Shown: positions 2,106 to 12,256 of the stretch, one piece after another | Layout of the letters: every line of letters begins with the position of its first letter | Numbering within the stretch: position 1 is the stretch's first letter | Virus record (IMG/VR): IMGVR_UViG_3300022074_000365 | Span: 1-24,438 of that record | Length of the DNA stretch: 24,438 nucleotides | Strand: one strand, 5' to 3' | Source: a virus | The notes under the pieces: generated by a model | Told to the model about the DNA's origin: nothing | Databases searched by the model: none | Seen by the model: only the letters and a program-made list of their open reading frames with translations | Position numbers and translations under genes: made by a program

Positions 2106-2738
2106 ATGCAAAATATTTCATTTGAATACATTGATACAAAAAAACTAGTTCCTTATGCAACAAATAGCCGAGTGCATAGTGCTGAACAAATTGATAAAAT
2201 TGCAAAATCAATAACAGAATTTGGCTTTTTAAATCCCATAATTATTGATGGTAAAAAGGGCATCATTGCAGGGCATGGTCGTGTATTGGCGGCAAAAAAA
2301 TTAAAGATAGATAAATTGCCAACAATCAAAGCAGAACATTTAACTGAAGCACAAAAAAAAGCATATGTTTTAGCAGACAATCGTATAGCACTAGATGCAT
2401 CATGGGATTTTACTTTACTGCGTGATGAGTTCGAGCAGTTACAATTACATCAGTTCGATCTATCATTTACTGGTTTTGAGCCAATAGAGCTAGAAAGTCT
2501 AAAGCTAGATATTGATGAAGAAAAAACAGACGCATGGGCAGAATGGGAAGGCATGCCAGAATACGATGACGAACCAACAGTCTTTCGTAGATTATGGGTA
2601 CACTTTCATACTGAAAAAGACTTAAAAGATTTTGAGCGTTTGCTTGAAGGGCAGACAGTAACAGAAAAAACCAAAACAGTTTATTTCCCCAAATATATAC
2701 CACAGAATAATTCAGATTATGAGTATACTGACGAATAA
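2106..2738 (+). CDS. ParB-like N-terminal nuclease-fold (ParB/Srx) domain protein
   Basis: This 210-aa protein has a ParB/sulfiredoxin-fold domain over roughly residues 5-110. Visible are LNPIIIDGKKGIIAGHGR with the G56-H-G-R59 motif, then AYVLADNRIAL. In phages this domain is often fused to, or encoded beside, a DNA methyltransferase; here no methyltransferase domain follows. The C-terminal ~60 residues (VHFHTEKDLKDFERLL, then KTVYFPKY) form a second segment that I recognise only as typical of small phage ParB-like proteins. The 3' end overlaps the glycosyltransferase gene by 20 bp, so the two are probably co-expressed, which suggests a DNA-binding or nicking role linked to DNA modification. 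That role is inference; the domain call is firm. Confidence 0.8.
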   Translation: MQNISFEYIDTKKLVPYATNSRVHSAEQIDKIAKSITEFGFLNPIIIDGKKGIIAGHGRVLAAKKLKIDKLPTIKAEHLTEAQKKAYVLADNRIALDASWDFTLLRDEFEQLQLHQFDLSFTGFEPIELESLKLDIDEEKTDAWAEWEGMPEYDDEPTVFRRLWVHFHTEKDLKDFERLLEGQTVTEKTKTVYFPKYIPQNNSDYEYTDE

Positions 2739-3624
2739 TCACCCAAACTTTCCAATATACATACCCTCTAAAGGCAGGGCGGATGTGTGTCTAACTTCGG
2801 ATGCATTATGCGAGATGAAGGTAAAGCATTACATTATCGTAGAGCCGCAAGAAGTGAAATTATATAAGGCACATCGTAATCTTGAATATGCAAGTATTCT
2901 AAAGCTTGATTTAAGTTATAAGGATAAATACGAACACTGCGATGATCTAGGCACTAGTAAAAGCTCAGGACCAGGTCCCGCACGTAACTTTGCATGGGAT
3001 CATAGCATGAAAAATGGCTACGATTGGCATTGGGTTATGGATGACAACATACAGTATTTCATCAGGACAAATAATCGTAGGCGAATTAGATGTAAAACCG
3101 CATCATTCTGGAAAGCCCAAGAAGATTTTATTTTGAGGTATGAGAATATAGGAATGGGCGGACCAGTGTATGGAATGTTCTGTTTTCGTGATCCAGAGAT
3201 AGATATGCCTCCCTTTATAACAAATACAAGAATATACAGTTGTAACTTCATCCGTAATGATTTGCCGTTTAGATGGAGAGGCAGATATAACGAAGATACA
3301 ATATTGTCACTTGATATGATGAAGGCGGGTTGGTGTACAATTCAGTTCTATGCATTTGCTCAACAGAAAATTGTTACACAAGCACTCAAAGGTGGCAATA
3401 GTGACGAATTTTATTTCAAAGAGGGAACTCTTGAAAAGTCACGTATGCAAGTACAAGTGCATCCTGATGTGAGCAAGTTGGTAAAAAAGTTTGGTAGATG
3501 GCACCACAGGGTTAATTATATGCCGTTCCAAAAGATGAAACTGAGAAGAAAAAAAGACTACGAAGCAATGTTAGGAAAAAATGATTATGGGCAGAAGCTT
3601 GTCAAAAGAGTTAAATCTGATTAA
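2719..3624 (+). CDS. TET-associated-type glycosyltransferase (TAGT-like), putative DNA base hypermodification
   Basis: This 301-aa protein starts FPIYIPSKGRADVCLTSDAL, followed by HYIIVEPQEVKLYKAH, GPGPARNF, WHWVMDDNIQYF (D108-D109-N110), FRWRGRYNEDTILSLDMM (R185-D193), GWCTIQFYAFAQQK and a KGGN motif at about 224-227. These match, in order, the TET-associated glycosyltransferase family, a GT-A-like fold related to the GREB1 C-terminal domain. Phages use these enzymes to put sugars on oxidised 5-methylcytosine made by a methyltransferase plus a TET/JBP dioxygenase. DDN would be the nucleotide-sugar/metal site. Neither a TET enzyme nor a cytosine methyltransferase is encoded in this window, so they must lie outside it or the substrate differs. 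The start at 2719 lies inside the ParB-like gene. Confidence 0.8.
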   Translation: MSILTNNHPNFPIYIPSKGRADVCLTSDALCEMKVKHYIIVEPQEVKLYKAHRNLEYASILKLDLSYKDKYEHCDDLGTSKSSGPGPARNFAWDHSMKNGYDWHWVMDDNIQYFIRTNNRRRIRCKTASFWKAQEDFILRYENIGMGGPVYGMFCFRDPEIDMPPFITNTRIYSCNFIRNDLPFRWRGRYNEDTILSLDMMKAGWCTIQFYAFAQQKIVTQALKGGNSDEFYFKEGTLEKSRMQVQVHPDVSKLVKKFGRWHHRVNYMPFQKMKLRRKKDYEAMLGKNDYGQKLVKRVKSD

Positions 3625-5420: not shown

Positions 5421-7573
5421 TGCCGACATTTAGACAGCGACTAGCAAGCTTTATCAGTCCGCCAAACCTTGAGCGTAAAGAGTTTCCAATGGTCATGTAT
5501 CAGGGGGTAACGGCATACAATCAAAGCAAATACACCTATCAACGTCTGTCCCAAGAGGGCTATCAACAGAATGCGATTGTTTATCGGTGTATCAATGAGA
5601 TTGCCAACGGAGCTAGTGCAGTAAAGTTTCAGGTGTTCGATGGGGACACACAGATTGAAAACCATCCGCTTGAGATGTTGCTTAAAAGGCCAAACGCACA
5701 GATGGCGGGTTCAGAATATTTCCAAGCCCTGTATTCATATCTGCTTTTGGACGGAAACTCCTACGCATTGCGCTCGGATGTAAATGGTAAGCCAAGTGAG
5801 TTACACATCTTACGTCCAGACCGCATGACAATTACGCCAAGCAAGACGCAGATACCCAAGAATTACCAGTACAAGATTAATGGGCAGGTAGCGGCTCAGT
5901 ATGATGTTGACCAAGAGACAGGCGCATCAGAAGTTAAACACCTTAAACTTTGGAACCCATTAGATGATTACTATGGGCTTTCACCAATTAGCGCGGCGGC
6001 TGTTGATATTGATCAGCACAACCTTGCGGCACGACATAACGTCAATCTACTTAACAACGGCGCAAGACCATCAGGGGCTATCGTATTTAAGCCTAAAGAT
6101 GATGCAGGAATGCCTGTTCAGTTATCAGAGTCACAAAGGCAACAGCTACACACAGACCTCAATGCGAGGTTTAGCGGCCCAGATAATTCAGGCCGAGCGA
6201 TGTTGCTTGAGGGTGATTTCGATTGGAAAGAGATGGGTTTGACACCAAAAGACATGGATTTCCTAGAATTGAAGAACATGAGCGCGAGGGATATAGCTTT
6301 GTGCTTTGGTGTTCCTAGTCAGTTGGTTGGTGTCCCAGACGCACAGACATACGCAAACGTGCAAGAGGCAAGACTAGCCCTGTACGAGGACACAATCGTG
6401 CCTTTGATGATGCGGATGCAGAGCGACTTAAACGAGTGGCTTGCACCAGCATATGGTGAGAATATCCAAATAAGATACGACATTGACTCTATCCCAGCCA
6501 TGGCAGAGCGCAGACGCAGGATTTACGACAATGTGATAAATGCAGTCCGCGAGGGGATTATCAGCAGAAACGAAGCCAGACAGCGTTTAGGGCTGGATGA
6601 TATTACAGGCGGTGATGATGTTTATATTGCGGCAAACCTGTTCCCATTGGGCGCACCTAACACGGAGGATGCAGATGACGAAGATGCTAAAGATATTTAC
6701 GGCGGTAAAAGAGAGGTCGAAAAAGATATTTTTACAACTGAAAGCGAAGCTGAACAACGTGCTGAACAGATAGGTTGTAGTGGCACACATGCACACGAGA
6801 CAGAAAACGGCACAGTCTATATGCCATGCGCCAGTCATTCAGACTACGAGAGACTTACAGGCGATGAATTGGAAACACCAAAGGCGGAGGCTGATGTTGA
6901 CACGAAGCCGACAGAAGCTATGGCAAATGCCGCGAAACGTGGGCTAGAGATGCGCCGAGAGTTTGGGCGAGGAGGGACAGCAGTAGGTGTTGCTAGGGCA
7001 AACCAGCTTGTTAAACGAGAAAACCTCTCACCGTCCACTGTGAGGCGCATGCATAGCTTTTTCAGCAGGCATGAGGTTGACAAGAGAGCCGAGGGCTTTC
7101 GTGAGGGCGAGGATGGCTATCCAAGTGCTGGTAAGGTCGCATGGCTACTTTGGGGCGGCGATAGCGGTCAGTCATGGGCGCGCCGTAAGGTTGATCAATT
7201 AAACCGAGAGCGTGATAAAAACTTTGAAGTAGATGCGCTCATAAATGGTGTATTTGAAAGCAAGGCCACAGTATCAGCGCGAGCCAAAAAAGCTATTGCT
7301 AAAAAGGTCAAAGACCATAATGACGAACATGGCGATAAGAAAGGCAAGCGCGTCACACAGCGCATGTTAGAAGCTGTTTTTCGTAGGGGAGTGGGGGCAT
7401 ACAATACAAACCCAGGTTCAGTACGTCCATCTGTAACGAGCAGTGACCAGTGGGCGCAAGCTAGAATTAATGCATTTTTATACGCAGTGCGAAATGGCAG
7501 ATTTAGGTCAGGCAAGTTTGACCTTGACCTTTTACCCGAAGGTCATCCAATGAAAAGCAATAAGAAAAAATGA
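5420..7573 (+). CDS. Portal protein (HK97 gp3-like) with ~300-aa C-terminal accessory extension
   Basis: The protein has 717 residues; HK97-type portals are usually 400-450. Residues ~30-400 are a standard portal, with NAIVYRCINEIANGAS, HPLEMLLKRPN, LLLDGNSYA, VKHLKLWNPLDDYYGLSPI, SARDIALCFGVPSQLVGVPD and a terminal ISRNEARQRLGLDDI. It forms the 12-subunit ring through which DNA enters. After residue ~425 come three segments not seen in ordinary portals: a CSGTHAH...YMPCASHSDY segment (~440-480), an MRREFGRGGTAVGVARAN / YPSAGKVAWLLWGGDSGQSW segment (~505-590), and a SVRPSVTSSDQWAQARINAF / GKFDLDLLPEGHP segment (~650-710). I recognise these only as accessory segments of marine phage virion proteins; their function is unknown. 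GGAG at 5407-5410 precedes the start, and the stop overlaps the next gene in ATGA. Confidence 0.9.
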   Translation: MPTFRQRLASFISPPNLERKEFPMVMYQGVTAYNQSKYTYQRLSQEGYQQNAIVYRCINEIANGASAVKFQVFDGDTQIENHPLEMLLKRPNAQMAGSEYFQALYSYLLLDGNSYALRSDVNGKPSELHILRPDRMTITPSKTQIPKNYQYKINGQVAAQYDVDQETGASEVKHLKLWNPLDDYYGLSPISAAAVDIDQHNLAARHNVNLLNNGARPSGAIVFKPKDDAGMPVQLSESQRQQLHTDLNARFSGPDNSGRAMLLEGDFDWKEMGLTPKDMDFLELKNMSARDIALCFGVPSQLVGVPDAQTYANVQEARLALYEDTIVPLMMRMQSDLNEWLAPAYGENIQIRYDIDSIPAMAERRRRIYDNVINAVREGIISRNEARQRLGLDDITGGDDVYIAANLFPLGAPNTEDADDEDAKDIYGGKREVEKDIFTTESEAEQRAEQIGCSGTHAHETENGTVYMPCASHSDYERLTGDELETPKAEADVDTKPTEAMANAAKRGLEMRREFGRGGTAVGVARANQLVKRENLSPSTVRRMHSFFSRHEVDKRAEGFREGEDGYPSAGKVAWLLWGGDSGQSWARRKVDQLNRERDKNFEVDALINGVFESKATVSARAKKAIAKKVKDHNDEHGDKKGKRVTQRMLEAVFRRGVGAYNTNPGSVRPSVTSSDQWAQARINAFLYAVRNGRFRSGKFDLDLLPEGHPMKSNKKK

Positions 7574-8292
7574 CCATAGATGCAAAATATGGCATTCAAA
7601 TCCATGAGGGTATGATTGCAAGACACCGCCCAGCATTTAAGTTTGGCTATAATCCCGCAGTGGGTACAGATGAGGAGACAGTCTGGTCACAGGGCGGCAT
7701 TTATAGTTATTTGTCATCAGCTAGTGTGTTGAAGGTATCAAGCAGTGATGATGGCGATACATCAACAATTACGATAAGTGGGCTGAATGCAAACTATGAT
7801 GAAATATCTGAAAGCGTAACAATCACAGGTCAAACCGCAGTAAATACGTCAAATAGTTTCTTGCGGGTTAATCGTATGTTTGTAACTGCAGACGAGCCAA
7901 CTGGCGATATTTACGCAGGAACAGGCACAGTTTCATCAGGTGTCCCAGTAAATAAATACGGAAAGATAGATGCTGGCGAAAACCAGACATTGCAAAGCGT
8001 GTATTCAGTTCCAAGAAATCACACAGCGTATATTTTTAACGTAACAGTTTCATCAGGCACAACGGCGGCAAACAAATTCGCAACAGCCAGACTCTTGTTG
8101 CGTGAGTTTAGTGGTGTATTTAGAACCCAGACAGTGACGACATTACACAACAATTTTGCACAATACATTTTGGGTGTCCCGATTGCTATGCCAGCTAAAT
8201 CTGATATTGAGATAAGGGCAGTGGTAAGCTCAGGGTCAGATGCAATCTCTGGCACTTTTAGTTATGTGTTAGTCAAAGATGAAAACAGCTAG
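7570..8292 (+). CDS. Conserved marine-phage virion structural protein (function unassigned)
   Basis: This 240-aa protein appears to be rich in beta strands, with many S/T/V residues and no membrane segment. Landmarks are KFGYNPAVGTDEETVW, QGGIYSYLSSASVLKVSSS, ISGLNANYDEISESVTITGQ, NSFLRVNRMF and a C-terminal VPRNHTAYIFN...IRAVVSSGSDAISGTFSYVLV. The pattern (VW..GG.Y.Y, .I.GL...Y..ISE.V..TG, FLRV.R) belongs to a family I have seen repeatedly as structural proteins in marine phages, without an assigned place in the particle. Position between portal and the Mu F-like gene suggests a head or neck component. It starts within the portal stop codon and overlaps the next gene by 14 bp. Confidence 0.55.
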   Translation: MTIDAKYGIQIHEGMIARHRPAFKFGYNPAVGTDEETVWSQGGIYSYLSSASVLKVSSSDDGDTSTITISGLNANYDEISESVTITGQTAVNTSNSFLRVNRMFVTADEPTGDIYAGTGTVSSGVPVNKYGKIDAGENQTLQSVYSVPRNHTAYIFNVTVSSGTTAANKFATARLLLREFSGVFRTQTVTTLHNNFAQYILGVPIAMPAKSDIEIRAVVSSGSDAISGTFSYVLVKDENS

Positions 8293-9070
8293 AAAGCAAA
8301 GGCGTGGTCGGCTTATATCGGCACGCAGAGAGGTTGCAGAGCAGAACCGTATCCGTAATGGCTATGAGCGCAATCTTGCACAGCAACTTATTTCAGCATT
8401 CAATCGGATAGGCACAAGGGCTGGAGAGCAATACGAATATGGCGGACTTCGAACAATAAACCGCAATCAAATAACTCAAGATTTAACTAATGTAATTCTG
8501 CCAAGTGTGCGTGCTATTATGACTGCAATGGTAGATCGCTTTACATTAATACGAGCAAAGCAATCACCATACGAAAGATATATAGAAGAATATATAAATA
8601 CGCAGGTAGGAAGTCGTATCCAGCTTATTGATGCAACAACACTTGTATTAATACGCAAAGCTATCCTTGATGGCACAGGTGATGATCTAGGACCAGCCCA
8701 GATTTCAAGACTTATCCAAAATAGGGTTTCAACGATTGGCAGACGCAGGGCTATCACTATAGCCAGAACTGAAACACACAGTGCGGCATCATTCGCAAAC
8801 AATGCTGTTGCTAAAGAAATAGGTGTTGACCTTAAAAAACGCTGGGTCAGCACAAACGATGACAGAACACGCGCGCACCACAGGGCGGTAAATGGTCAAG
8901 AGGTTGGCATGGAGGAAGACTTTATAATCCCGACACCCGTTAAGGGCGGGGCAGTAGAGGATAGGCGGCTAGCGTATGCTGGAGACCCCCGTGGAGGTCC
9001 CCAGAACACGATTAATTGTAGATGTGTTATTGTTTATTATGAAGAGGGTGACGAGATACTTGACTCGTAG
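8279..9070 (+). CDS. Head morphogenesis protein, Mu gpF / SPP1 gp7-like
   Basis: This 263-aa minor head protein is thought to bind the portal and be carried inside the capsid in related phages. The C-terminal Mu F-like domain (about residues 150-260) has RRRAITIARTETHSAASFAN, KKRWVSTNDDRTRAHHRAVN, GQEV, GDPRGGPQNTINCRCV and a short acidic tail. The spaced H and the final C-R-C are the family hallmarks. The N-terminal half is basic and helical. The gene overlaps its upstream neighbour by 14 bp, and its last 34 bp overlap a gene on the opposite strand. It is the last plus-strand head gene before the minus-strand cassette. Confidence 0.88.
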   Translation: MKTARKQRRGRLISARREVAEQNRIRNGYERNLAQQLISAFNRIGTRAGEQYEYGGLRTINRNQITQDLTNVILPSVRAIMTAMVDRFTLIRAKQSPYERYIEEYINTQVGSRIQLIDATTLVLIRKAILDGTGDDLGPAQISRLIQNRVSTIGRRRAITIARTETHSAASFANNAVAKEIGVDLKKRWVSTNDDRTRAHHRAVNGQEVGMEEDFIIPTPVKGGAVEDRRLAYAGDPRGGPQNTINCRCVIVYYEEGDEILDS

Positions 9071-9471
9071 ATGGCCTTAATAGGGTCATCAATTACGTCA
9101 AGCTTAGTCATATCATGCCGATCGCGTGATATTGTAATAACGCCATCACCAAATTTGTTTGCTATCCAAGACAGCAAATTCCAAACAACTAAGTCGTATG
9201 GATTTTGTCTTGTCTTGCAGAAATTAAATTTGTAATATTCATCTGGTCGCCCATTTTCTTTTGCATTTGCAAATGGTGTTTGCTCAAAAATGAATGTTTC
9301 GCAATCGTTACCTTTTGTGCCATTAAAGGCAATCTCGGCATCATGCTGTGTTTCATCTACAAAGATGTGACCTTCGCAAGTATCACGGAGATAGCTGTAT
9401 TGATCTAAAATCATAAGCCATTCAGTTCCAGTAAAGTCGCGGTATTGTTTCCAGTAGTTTGTATATCCCAT
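9037..9471 (-). CDS. Conserved phage hypothetical protein, GYTNYW family (144 aa)
   Basis: The protein starts MGYTNYWKQYRDFTGTEWLM and contains IAFNGTKGNDCETFIFEQ, FNFCKTRQNPYDLVVWNLLS and a final block with ISRDRHDMT. This combination (GYT.YW start, I.FNG...CETF, FCKT...PYD.VV) marks a small family often met in phages and plasmids, without a known biochemical role. The frame is open further upstream to 9672, but the ATG at 9471 has GGAG at 9479-9482 (minus strand) 7 nt away, and the family begins with MGYT. It lies 61 bp downstream of the KFHDYNF gene, beyond a terminator, and converges on the Mu F-like gene with a 34-bp overlap. Confidence 0.75.
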   Translation of the reverse strand: MGYTNYWKQYRDFTGTEWLMILDQYSYLRDTCEGHIFVDETQHDAEIAFNGTKGNDCETFIFEQTPFANAKENGRPDEYYKFNFCKTRQNPYDLVVWNLLSWIANKFGDGVITISRDRHDMTKLDVIDDPIKAIYESSISSPSS

Positions 9472-9499
9472 TTGAGTTCTCCTATAATAAATTGAGATG

Positions 9500-9525
9500 A
9501 AAAAAGGGGCGGCTTTGACCGCCCC
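9500..9525 (-). terminator. Rho-independent terminator of the KFHDYNF-family gene
   Basis: Read on the minus strand, GGGGCGG, a 6-nt loop and CCGCCCC (9525-9506) form a perfect 7-bp GC-rich stem followed immediately by six T (9505-9500). It stands 8 bp after the stop of the minus-strand gene ending at 9533. Escape past it would be needed to express the next minus-strand gene unless that gene has its own promoter. Confidence 0.85.
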
Positions 9526-9532
9526 TGATAAA

Positions 9533-10090
9533 TTAGAAATTGTAGTCGTGGAATTTTGAAGGTTGTGTTGATAGAAAATGTTGTCCATAAGATGATTTCC
9601 AACCATCTTTGTTTCGTCTTGCGCGAATGGTGGGCTTTTCTTGATTACTTTTAATATTCCAGATCTGTTCATCTTGATTTACACAATGACCAGCAAAACC
9701 GCCAGAAATAAATGCTGGTTGCCATTCGCCTTTTTCTGCATCCATTTCGCGGATTTCAATAGTTGTATCAGAAATAACACGGACAATTTCAAAAGGCGTT
9801 ACATCTGAGTAACCAGACATGTTGGCATATTCAAAATTGATAGTCTCAATCTTAAAAGAATGAGAGATTGTGCCAAGCTTACTTTCTTTAACAGTTGGCA
9901 GAAATGATATAGCATTTTTTGCGGCAAATTCAGTTGAAAAAGATGTAGCTTTTAAACAATTAAGTGTGTCGTAGATTTTGCCATGTGCAAGTGATTTTTC
10001 TACATCTACATATTCTTCACCGAAATCCATGACCTCGCCTTCAAAGGTTTTCATGGTGTTAATGGTCTTGATATAAAATTGTGTAAACAT
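9533..10090 (-). CDS. Conserved phage hypothetical protein, C-terminal KFHDYNF family (185 aa)
   Basis: No function is known to me. The C-terminal two thirds look most constrained: TPFEIVRVISDTTIEIREMD, AEKGEWQPAFISGGFAGHCV, NQDEQIWNI, then RARRNKDGWKSSYGQHFLS and the terminal KFHDYNF. The density of W, H, Q and aromatic residues resembles a compact beta-rich fold found in other phage hypotheticals. The start at 10090 has AGGA (minus strand, 10102-10099) 8 nt upstream and a promoter-like element just beyond. It has its own promoter upstream and terminator downstream, making it an independent transcription unit inside the head gene block. Confidence 0.7.
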   Translation of the reverse strand: MFTQFYIKTINTMKTFEGEVMDFGEEYVDVEKSLAHGKIYDTLNCLKATSFSTEFAAKNAISFLPTVKESKLGTISHSFKIETINFEYANMSGYSDVTPFEIVRVISDTTIEIREMDAEKGEWQPAFISGGFAGHCVNQDEQIWNIKSNQEKPTIRARRNKDGWKSSYGQHFLSTQPSKFHDYNF

Positions 10091-10118
10091 TTGAGTAATC
10101 CTTTAATAAATAATCAAT

Positions 10119-10153
10119 ATAATACTAATACCAAATTGTTCTTATTAGATCAA
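10119..10153 (-). promoter_or_regulatory. Promoter A, driving the KFHDYNF-family gene
   Basis: On the minus strand, TTGATC (10153-10148), a 17-nt spacer and TATTAG (10130-10125) are followed by a second TATTAT-like hexamer. Transcription would begin near 10118, leaving a leader of about 28 nt with AGGA. The 32-bp block 10122-10153 matches the block upstream of the DUF932 gene at 29 of 32 positions (see promoter B). The T-tract of the preceding terminator ends one base before the -35 element. Confidence 0.65.
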
Positions 10154-10154
10154 G

Positions 10155-10192
10155 AAAAAAAACACCCCCAATCAAAAAAAAATTGAGGGTGC
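10155..10192 (-). terminator. Rho-independent terminator of the DUF932 gene
   Basis: On the minus strand, CACCCTCAAT (10191-10182), a T-rich loop and ATTGGGGGTG (10072-equivalent arm at 10172-10163) pair with a single A-C mismatch and are followed by eight T (10162-10155). It sits 23 bp past the stop of the gene at 10215-11054 and directly abuts promoter A of the next gene. Confidence 0.8.
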
Positions 10193-10214
10193 TTAATATT
10201 TGATTTGTTTGGGT

Positions 10215-11054
10215 TTATCTGGTCAGATATTCCCATTGATTGCTTTTAAGCATATTTGCCACCATATTTTCACGCTCTCTGCGTTTATTTGATGGGTTTG
10301 CGTAATCATTCGTATGCGTAGACCAATGCGTAGCGGCATTATATAAAGCCCAAAGGTTAGAGCCAAGTTTGTCTTGATAATCGCACCAATGACCAAAAAG
10401 AATTGTTCTCTGCTTTTGATTTACAGTGTCATTTTCAAGCGCTGTATGAGATGATTTCTGATAGCAAAGTGTTGCCTCAAATAGCTTCAAGGCCTGTAAA
10501 TCTGTAATTTTAGTAGTAGAGTAGTCAGCCCACATTTGCTGGTTATCCCAAAATGTTTCAACACCATTCTGTATCTGGGCAATAAAGCCATCAACATCTA
10601 GTTTAGTGGTGTGTCTTTGGTATGTGTGCATAACATGATCGGCGGTTGTGCAACCATTTAGGCACCATAATCTTAATGCGTCTGCCTTCAATTGAACAGA
10701 CCATGCGCCATCGTATGAATTATAAAAGCAGATACGAAATTTTATGTGATCATCAGCAATTGGTTCGGCAACCAGATCATTGAATAGAATTTCACCGCGT
10801 AGTCTTGCCCCATTATTAAAAAGGTCAATATTGCAATCATAATCATCAGCAATGCTTGATAAAGATACAGCATTCATTATTGATGATACAACTTCGTCAT
10901 GTGAAATAAGTTCATATCTTTTGCCGTGAATTGCTAAAACATCATTTGTATCTGTTCTTACAACAGCACGACCTAGATTATTGGGAATGTTAAGATTAGA
11001 GACAGTTTGTATATCTTGTATTTCAACAGGAAAATTGTGATCTTGAATAGTCAT
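10215..11054 (-). CDS. DUF932 family phage/plasmid-type protein
   Basis: This 279-aa protein matches the DUF932 (phage/plasmid-like, TIGR03299-type) pattern: GRAVVRTDTNDVLAIHGKRYE, LISHDEVV, a central RGEILFND...IKFRICFYNSYDGAWS, LRLWCLNGC, RHTTKLD and a C-terminal SNLWALYNAATHWSTHTNDY, then a basic stretch and NQWEYLTR. The family is common in phages and plasmids and has no established activity; some anti-defence or replication roles have been suggested elsewhere, but nothing here shows that. The ATG at 11054 has AGGAG (11066-11062) 7 nt upstream and a promoter beyond, and the gene ends in its own terminator. Confidence 0.85.
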   Translation of the reverse strand: MTIQDHNFPVEIQDIQTVSNLNIPNNLGRAVVRTDTNDVLAIHGKRYELISHDEVVSSIMNAVSLSSIADDYDCNIDLFNNGARLRGEILFNDLVAEPIADDHIKFRICFYNSYDGAWSVQLKADALRLWCLNGCTTADHVMHTYQRHTTKLDVDGFIAQIQNGVETFWDNQQMWADYSTTKITDLQALKLFEATLCYQKSSHTALENDTVNQKQRTILFGHWCDYQDKLGSNLWALYNAATHWSTHTNDYANPSNKRRERENMVANMLKSNQWEYLTR

Positions 11055-11085
11055 TGAGTAACTCCTTGTAAAATGTTAATGACAA

Positions 11086-11119
11086 GTATACTAATACTAA
11101 ATTATTCTTATAAGATCAA
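11086..11119 (-). promoter_or_regulatory. Promoter B, driving the DUF932 gene
   Basis: On the minus strand, TTGATC (11119-11114), a 17-nt spacer and TATTAG (11096-11091) are followed by GTATAC. The 32-bp block 11088-11119 equals promoter A at 10122-10153 except at three positions. Conservation of the spacer as well as of the hexamers argues for a functional element rather than chance AT-richness. Confidence 0.65.
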
Positions 11120-11128
11120 CCGATATTA

Positions 11129-11359
11129 TTAATTTCTTTTTTCTATTATTTCAGGATCAATTCTATCATCTAACCATAAGACTGGCATACAAGCCGCAAT
11201 TCTGGCATCATCTTCAGTTGCACCAGAGTTTATTACCTGTGCTTGCATCATACAACTTACAGGATCAAGCCTTAGCTCTGCCTCTATAAGATTTAAGTCT
11301 TGACCAGAGTTTATTGTCATTTTAGAAAAAAGCATTAAAACATAAACATATTCTGTCAT
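11129..11359 (-). CDS. Small hypothetical phage protein (76 aa)
   Basis: The product starts MTEYVYVLMLFSKMTINSGQ and has LRLDPVSCMMQAQVINSGAT followed by DDARIAACMPVLWLD. The layout (short hydrophobic start, then a central Cys-containing helix and a second Cys before P.L) resembles small phage proteins of unknown role; I do not assign a family. No Shine-Dalgarno site precedes the ATG at 11359. Instead a TATAAA -10-like box (11371-11366) lies 6 nt upstream, consistent with a leaderless mRNA. An internal ATG nine codons in (11335) is an alternative start. It lies upstream of promoter B and is divergent from the prohead protease gene. Confidence 0.5.
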   Translation of the reverse strand: MTEYVYVLMLFSKMTINSGQDLNLIEAELRLDPVSCMMQAQVINSGATEDDARIAACMPVLWLDDRIDPEIIEKRN

Positions 11360-11365
11360 AATTTA

Positions 11366-11371
11366 TTTATA
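11366..11371 (-). promoter_or_regulatory. Candidate -10 element for a leaderless minus-strand transcript
   Basis: TATAAA on the minus strand is separated by 6 nt from the ATG at 11359, so transcription would begin at or next to the start codon. No convincing -35 hexamer stands 16-18 nt upstream. Weak evidence alone; it gains weight from the lack of a ribosome binding site and from the mirror arrangement on the plus strand. Confidence 0.3.
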
Positions 11372-11413
11372 CAGCATTGTTCGTACAAGAGCGAGAAAAA
11401 AAAATACTTACTA

Positions 11414-11441
11414 TTGTAAGAAAATCAAGATATGGTATGAT
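11414..11441 (+). promoter_or_regulatory. Promoter for the protease/major capsid operon, with overlapping dyad
   Basis: TTGTAA (11414-11419), a 16-nt spacer and TATGAT (11436-11441) form a good sigma70-like promoter. The ATG of the prohead protease is at 11447, only 5 nt after the -10 box, so the transcript would be leaderless. A dyad CTTAC-TATT-GTAAG (11407-11420) covers the -35 hexamer and could bind a regulator. A promoter is expected here because the minus-strand cassette cuts this operon from the upstream head genes. Confidence 0.5.
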
Positions 11442-11446
11442 TTATT

Positions 11447-12256
11447 ATGCCAATACCAAAACCTAGATCTGGTGAGAGCGAAAAAGATTTTATGGATCGT
11501 TGTATGAGCAATGATACTATGCTTGCTGAATACCCAAGCAATCGCCAAAGGGCGGCAGTTTGTAATACACAGATGGAGCCAAAAATGTCAGATGAACTTG
11601 ATACAAATTATCTAGACACGATTGCAGAAATCAAAGCCTATCACGATGAAGATGACGAAGACAAGGGCGAGTTTGAAGGCTACGCATCTATCTTCGGAAA
11701 TAAAGACCTAGGCAACGATGTTGTTGATATGGGCGCATTTAAGAAGTCATTGCGCCGCCGTGGAGCGAAGGGTGTAAAACTTTTATACCAGCACGACACA
11801 AAACAGCCCATAGGTGTTTTTGATAACATTAAAGAGGATGACCGAGGCTTGTATGTCAAAGGCCGATTGGCGCTTGGCACACAGAAAGGCCGAGAAGTAT
11901 TTGAGTTAATGAAGATGGGAGCCATTGACGGGCTGTCCATTGGATACAAGGTCGATAGCAAGGGTTATTCATATGACCAAGGCGGCAAGCGTAGACGCTT
12001 GAAAGAGGTTGATCTTATGGAGATTTCTGCCGTGACTTTCCCGATGAACCCACAGGCTACAATTCAGGCTGTGAAAGCGGAAGGTCGCACAGTTAGGGAG
12101 TGGGAGGGTTTTCTTCGGGATGAAGGAGACTTGAGCCGTTCCGATGCTAAGATTGCGGCAAAGGCCGTGTCTGATGCTTTGACTTGTCGGGATGACGAGG
12201 CACAAGCTGACTTAATAACCGCTATACAGCAAATTACCAAAACCCTGAAAGGATAG
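11447..12256 (+). CDS. Prohead protease (HK97 gp4-like, peptidase S78)
   Basis: This 269-aa protein cleaves capsid subunits and scaffold during maturation. The start MPIPKPRSGESEKDFMDRCM followed by YPSNRQRAAVC is a short N-terminal tail common in phage proheads proteases and fixes the ATG at 11447, although no Shine-Dalgarno site precedes it. The protease core has FEGYASIFGNKDLGNDVV, LLYQHDTKQPIGVF (catalytic candidate H116), GLYVKGRL, GAIDGLSIGY (S164 nucleophile candidate) and LMEISAVTFPMNP. The C-terminal REWEGFLRDEGDLSRSDAK stretch is usual for the family. The major capsid gene follows 4 bp later. Confidence 0.92.
   Translation: MPIPKPRSGESEKDFMDRCMSNDTMLAEYPSNRQRAAVCNTQMEPKMSDELDTNYLDTIAEIKAYHDEDDEDKGEFEGYASIFGNKDLGNDVVDMGAFKKSLRRRGAKGVKLLYQHDTKQPIGVFDNIKEDDRGLYVKGRLALGTQKGREVFELMKMGAIDGLSIGYKVDSKGYSYDQGGKRRRLKEVDLMEISAVTFPMNPQATIQAVKAEGRTVREWEGFLRDEGDLSRSDAKIAAKAVSDALTCRDDEAQADLITAIQQITKTLKG

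Follow-up and report, generated by a model that had tools for sequence, protein, structure and literature searches.

In Mu-like phages of Pseudomonas aeruginosa, small and variable anti-CRISPR (acr) genes occupy a fixed position among the head genes, beside the protease/scaffold gene, and have a conserved promoter of their own and a low guanine-plus-cytosine (GC) content (PMC4704812, PMC4378225). Inverted repeats overlap the acr promoters (PMC8434428). Morons of lambdoid and other phages are extra units with promoter and terminator, deviating in GC content and placed between genes that adjoin in relatives. We analyzed a locus with features of both in the viral record IMGVR_UViG_3300022074_000365, which derives from an uncultured marine phage. 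The stretch examined (24,438 nt, the window) contains a rightward operon coding for terminase, portal, MuF, protease, major capsid protein (MCP), and tail. Four minus-strand open reading frames (ORFs; positions 9037-11359; window ORFs were called mechanically) sit between the MuF-like minor head gene (8279-9070, plus; PF04233, E 7e-16) and the gene for the S78 prohead protease (11447-12256, plus; PF04586, E 3e-35). The arrangement had been described in an earlier note on this DNA and is confirmed here. In the direction of transcription the four genes are orf76, DUF932, KFHDYNF, and GYTNYW.

Like the acr genes, the genes of this cassette are small, variable, low in GC, fixed in position next to the protease gene, and equipped with their own promoter. 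Unlike the acr locus, which lies between the genes for protease and gpG, the cassette lies between MuF and protease and on the strand opposite to the head genes. It also differs in that it contains no recognizable Acr or helix-turn-helix (HTH) gene, in that there is no sign of lysogeny, and in that its promoter class is common to other operons of the same genomes. Our best explanation, to which we assign a probability of about 0.7, combines a hot spot for accessory genes, an early-type regulon on the strand opposite to the late genes (the anti-late strand), and cargo directed at the host.

A variable site between the MuF and protease genes

A protease search identified 80 relatives, mostly on incomplete contigs; those loci that come from related samples are not fully independent. 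At most 35 bp separate the genes at the TerL-portal, protease-MCP, and MCP-g154 junctions. The MuF-protease junction measures 32-4773 bp and is longer than 300 bp in 43 of 55 cases. The second most variable junction, portal-MuF, reaches 710 bp and exceeds 300 bp in 10 of 34 cases; in the window it holds a 240-aa gene (7570-8292), which is replaced or missing in many relatives. In L110, L116, L117, and L118, the C-terminal part of the portal is found downstream of g222, and the head genes of these contigs are therefore in a rearranged order.

Ten relatives (L072, L073, L090, L099, L102, L103, L108, L109, L113, and L114) have an empty MuF-protease site of 35-54 bp. The assumption that the flanking genes normally adjoin holds for these ten, but in the clade as a whole the two genes usually stand apart. 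The empty sites place the cassette, as is typical of morons, between genes that adjoin in relatives, and they mark a precise insertion point; an equally precise difference is seen in L049, which lacks exactly the KFHDYNF gene and its terminator.

Different small genes fill the site in different relatives. Most of the conserved cargo families (30 of 39) are mainly encoded on the minus strand, and several plus-strand families adjoin MuF. Terminators within the sites number 14 on the minus strand and 5 on the plus strand, with 2.0 expected per strand. The GC content of the site is below that of its flanks in all 44 filled relatives tested. The cassette of the window has values of 0.34-0.38 as compared to 0.45-0.46 for the MuF, protease, and MCP genes, which is the deviation from neighboring genes expected of a moron. 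A search with the DNA of the whole locus among 50,697 phage records gave no match. Judged by gene content and order, these comparisons show that accessory genes are exchanged at a fixed hot spot in this interval, on the strand opposite to the late head operon.

By its sequence, the cassette is a moron in the structural sense. It differs from described morons in comprising several genes, in frequent exchange at one site, and in the evidence for an early-type regulon instead of prophage expression. The earlier note had likewise seen a moron layout, and separate promoters, exchangeable content, a precise site, and low GC bear this out. The note had also named identical genes at the same site in all relatives, expressed only with the late genes, as grounds for abandoning the idea; content varies between relatives, and this refutation therefore fails. 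In its classical form the idea would make the four genes part of a temperate phage, expressed from the prophage for the benefit of the lysogen by lysogenic conversion or superinfection exclusion. Genes with their own promoters and terminators, low GC, and an insertion among head genes are the textbook layout of such units (PMC4378225), and a lysogeny module could lie outside the incomplete contigs. However, no match to the tyrosine integrase family Phage_integrase, which was detected in all control genomes, was found in the 12 clade records searched, of which nine measure 31-49 kb. Furthermore, 84,980 species genomes contain no close relative of the protease that would indicate a related prophage (best match 52%). 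We consider the classical explanation unlikely, and the lysogenic-type function proposed in the note is not borne out.

Promoters on the anti-late strand

The beginning of a filled site is often marked by a strong sigma-70 promoter, which lies 50-110 bp from the protease gene and on the strand of the cassette. A promoter matching at least 10 of 12 positions on this strand within 160 bp of the protease gene was found in 22 of 42 distinct filled loci (3.5 expected). The same scan returned 8 promoters on the plus strand, and the control region before the MCP gene returned none (0 of 36). In a set of distant relatives the border promoter has the form TTGACA-N3-GTAAACA. This motif occurs five times in each of two near-genome-length records, G005 and G009 (expected 0.015 and 0.05), and every copy is opposite to the late genes. 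In each genome, one copy heads the hot spot and four head further small-gene operons. In the protease loci taken together, all 22 copies lie on the anti-late strand and 17 of them are in the hot spot, with some of these loci being nearly identical. Comparison of the cargo proteins with the contigs outside the hot spot yielded 16 matches to 7 genes, all of which are on the anti-late strand and some of which directly follow such promoters; the DUF932 family is among the matches. For these relatives, the motif counts and protein matches show that further small-gene operons opposite to the late genes share the promoter class and the gene families of the site.

In the clade of the window, the strong promoter consists of TTGACn and a spacer with TTCTTATAAGAA or a close variant (L050, L052, L053). 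The TTCTTATAAGAA promoter is found again in G002, at an operon of early appearance; the corresponding operon of G001, the contig that also carries L042, has a version with two mismatches. An HTH protein of 59-60 aa is encoded in the early-looking operon behind this promoter class (HTH_31, E 3-4e-5; the 59-aa form at 2287-2463, minus, in L128). Another subset of the clade has the 18-bp palindrome ATGTTATTCCAATAACAT at the same place. Inverted repeats over the promoter, as known from acr loci, are perfect in L053 and in L043-type promoters and degenerate in the window. Spacer palindromes were rejected as a general rule of the site: those with arms of at least 5 are about equally frequent on both strands (13 plus, 16 minus). 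Palindromes with arms of at least 6 occur on the minus strand only (8), partly in near-identical loci.

Two relatives contain a second opposite-strand block with the same promoter class just before TerL (L138, 6632-9100; L133, 15300-17450), and the block in L138 includes an Amidoligase_2 gene (PF12224, E 5e-32). In L128 (position 6482), a 126-aa gene upstream of the primase gene is preceded by a plus-strand sigma-70 promoter that matches the consensus at all 12 of 12 positions.

Based on these patterns, we consider it most likely that the anti-late strand carries a second expression programme of early type and that the cassette is a portion of it housed within the head operon. Host RNA polymerase would transcribe the cassette from these promoters at an early stage of infection, as it would the remaining anti-late operons. 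A repressor that binds the promoter palindrome may later shut off the cassette promoters, and the 59-60-aa HTH protein encoded behind the same promoter class is a candidate for this role. The independence from the assembly programme that had been ascribed to these genes appears to mean that they belong to this second class of promoters, which further small-gene operons opposite to the late genes also use. If so, the phage keeps part of an early-type programme within its late operon and leaves the operon unbroken.

Several points weigh against this proposal. The evidence for a regulon is strongest in relatives with about 60-70% protease/capsid identity and not in the genome of the window, and the promoters of the window itself are weak sigma-70 matches under the 10/12 threshold. 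The HTH_31 match is just below the Pfam cut-off, and DNA binding by this protein is a prediction. The counts include the partly dependent loci from related samples mentioned above. Finally, Pfam, NCBIfam, and PADLOC returned no known anti-defence protein for any of the four cassette proteins.

Signals and gene turnover within the cassette

The first gene, orf76 (11129-11359, minus), has counterparts with 92% identity in L049, 60% in L047, and 53% in L046. DUF932 (10215-11054, minus) codes for 279 aa and KFHDYNF (9533-10090, minus; phrog_19789) for 185 aa. The mechanical GYTNYW ORF of 211 aa is too long: since the family, with relatives at 37 loci, always begins with an invariant MGYTNYW, the start was corrected to position 9471. 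The corrected gene (9037-9471, minus) codes for 144 aa and therefore does not overlap KFHDYNF, but 34 bp at its 3' end are shared with MuF. The ratios of nonsynonymous to synonymous substitution rates (dN/dS) are 0.10 for DUF932 and 0.12 for orf76 relative to L049, and 0.09 for GYTNYW relative to L053. As indicated by these low ratios, the cassette genes are real and under purifying selection.

The promoter elements before DUF932 (11088-11119, minus; containing CTTATAAG) and KFHDYNF (10122-10153, minus) both read TTGATC-17-TATTAG, a weak sigma-70 match. A 32-bp pattern, built from these same two copies, matches only them in the window, with 0.00 matches expected in shuffled sequences. A weaker third copy precedes orf76 (11364-11403, minus). 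Its distance from the protease start codon is 44-83 bp, and relatives carry their border promoter at this place. The element was not found in distant relatives, in which other promoter classes occupy the same place. Upstream of the orf76 promoter, direct reading reveals a small stem-loop, CTTAC/GTAAG followed by nine T (11396-11420, minus), which is weak and below the scan threshold. On the plus strand a promoter-like match, TTGTAA-16-TATGAT, precedes the protease gene (11414-11441); such matches are near chance level at this place overall, and this one may or may not be active.

Intrinsic terminators follow DUF932 (10160-10194, minus) and KFHDYNF (9505-9526, minus; nine pairs). The prediction that at least two of the genes have their own promoter and terminator is thus right, at the level of sequence, for KFHDYNF and DUF932. 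No recognizable promoter of its own was found for GYTNYW in the window, and this gene, now situated behind the KFHDYNF terminator, presumably lives on read-through. Because the T-run of the terminators is on the minus side only, late plus-strand transcription could pass through the cassette, and it would then also produce antisense RNA to the cassette genes.

The DUF932 terminator abuts the KFHDYNF promoter, and the two form a stem-loop and promoter composite (10194-10122), which has equivalents in L049 and L053. In this respect, the junction resembles the promoter/stem-loop (PeSL) cassettes that stand between shuffled genes of T4-type phages (Arbiol 2010 and Comeau 2014, as cited in PMC4503421), and it is a possible site of gene shuffling. 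PeSL cassettes belong to T4-type phages with densely spaced early promoters; the present case differs in that the phage is not T4-type but has HK97-type head genes with MuF, and in that the composites are limited to one or two junctions of one fixed site inside the late operon.

A contig with the same gene order and 100% identical proteins (L042) and a second one with the same order minus KFHDYNF (L049; 70-92% identity) were found among the relatives. An assembly chimera is ruled out by the recurrence of the arrangement in L042, L049, and L053. The DNA of L049 aligns with the window through orf76, DUF932, the DUF932 terminator, and the next promoter, and then directly enters the GYTNYW ribosome-binding site; at this point the window has KFHDYNF and its terminator. 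The KFHDYNF promoter is therefore predicted to drive GYTNYW directly in L049. The junction coincides with a direct repeat of the leader and ribosome-binding region, present before GYTNYW (9469-9492, minus) and, 619 bp away, before KFHDYNF (10088-10111, minus), with 88% identity over 24 nt. The window and L049 represent a natural before/after pair for the gain or loss of one gene.

The closest relative also differs by gene, being L053 for GYTNYW and L049 for DUF932, and the cassette genes therefore have separate histories. L053 is itself a mosaic, with a capsid protein 100% identical to that of the window (dS 0.08) and a TerL of 64% identity. The four genes had been described as one cassette; single genes come and go, and this description does not hold for the group as a unit. 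Recombination between repeated copies of promoters and leaders would exchange the genes. An ERF annealing protein and a PD-(D/E)XK nuclease of the phage itself, both encoded on the L042 contig with its 100% copy of the locus, are plausible agents of recombination at such short repeats and would perhaps assist the exchange.

A precise site with empty and filled states could also point to a homing endonuclease, a transposon, or a similar mobile element that landed here. However, contents differ and single genes move, none of the four genes codes for a nuclease, transposase, or recombinase, and the borders showed no conspicuous terminal inverted repeats. Among the relatives we noted just one weak rve_2 match, in a plus-strand gene of one relative (E 0.004, below cut-off). 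The idea of a selfish insertion is largely refuted by these observations.

Cargo families and their possible role

In other phages, a cassette family is mostly found without its companions. The idea of a fixed GYTNYW-KFHDYNF-DUF932 system was rejected, as the families hardly co-occur outside the clade; GYTNYW is found together with DUF932 in two contigs there. KFHDYNF and DUF932 are spread over phages of unrelated hosts, including Bacillus, Pseudomonas, Yersinia, Microcystis, and Bacteroides. From where homologues of the cargo occur, the host of the present phage may be guessed to belong to the Rhodobacterales. In isolated roseophages, homologues of the cassette genes lie among replication or orphan genes. 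This location, together with the anti-late strand in the clade, argues against the possibility that the genes encode internal or decoration proteins of the virion, act late, and are on the other strand by chance. Their position among head genes would fit such a role, and in some other phages KFHDYNF shares the strand of terminase and lies a few kb ahead of it. Nevertheless, the opposite strand, a promoter class observed only opposite to the late genes, and a site that can be empty make virion or assembly-linked functions very unlikely.

DUF932 matches PF06067 (E 4e-14) and phrog_1221 (E 1e-20). It resembles the DUF932/TIGR03299 proteins of phages and plasmids, with a score above the PF06067 gathering cut-off (53.3 versus 23 bits) and below the curated cut-off of TIGR03299 (47.3 versus 110.7 bits). 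Titles and abstracts of the literature naming DUF932 give no function for it. Sequence-profile searches of the PDB with DUF932, KFHDYNF, and GYTNYW found nothing significant. AlphaFold2 models of KFHDYNF and DUF932 (mean predicted local distance difference test, pLDDT, 93.9 and 87.6) had no fold match in the PDB at E<=0.001; weak matches to capping-protein and Rad52 folds were taken as noise. The models suggest that both proteins possibly have undescribed folds.

The similarity to the Pseudomonas Mu-like acr locus raises the question as to whether the four genes encode anti-CRISPRs accompanied by a linked repressor. A nearly identical position, variable genes and an own promoter (PMC4704812), low GC (PMC4378225), and palindromes in promoters of the clade (compare PMC8434428) speak for a strict acr-aca locus. 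By contrast, NCBIfam and Pfam searches with the four genes and with 91 representatives of the cargo matched no Acr family, and neither set includes a linked aca gene with an HTH domain. New Acrs usually have no homologues. PADLOC recognized none of the four proteins. The spread of KFHDYNF and DUF932 over phages of unrelated hosts also argues against anti-CRISPRs in the strict sense, which we regard as quite unlikely.

Recognizable cargo in relatives includes PAPS reductase, an MT-A70 methyltransferase (plus strand), a DNA-binding protein, and a pyrimidine-dimer glycosylase. This cargo fits DNA modification, repair, and counter-defence and proves nothing for the four genes of the window. Given the location, the promoter class, and these few recognizable genes, the host or its defences are the most likely target of the cargo, as opposed to a function in the virion; this is the weakest step of our explanation. 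For the four genes themselves, the host-takeover or anti-defence function suggested earlier is a hypothesis. More tentatively, the site may be a dedicated and co-regulated port, where any gene that lands behind the border promoter would join the early regulon inside the late operon. GYTNYW, KFHDYNF, and DUF932 would then be three widespread undescribed families with host-takeover or counter-defence roles. If this is true, a simple positional rule (MuF-S78 protease interval, opposite strand, border promoter) would find candidates for host takeover and anti-defence in marine metagenomes, and it would do so without any known neighboring gene.

Apart from the cassette, the upstream region contains a ParB-like gene beside a TET-associated glycosyltransferase gene (PF20691, E 9e-38; window 2106-3624). 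In the 100% relative, a 2OG-Fe(II) oxygenase is encoded upstream on the same contig (L128, 1715-2287). The three genes possibly serve the hypermodification of DNA bases.

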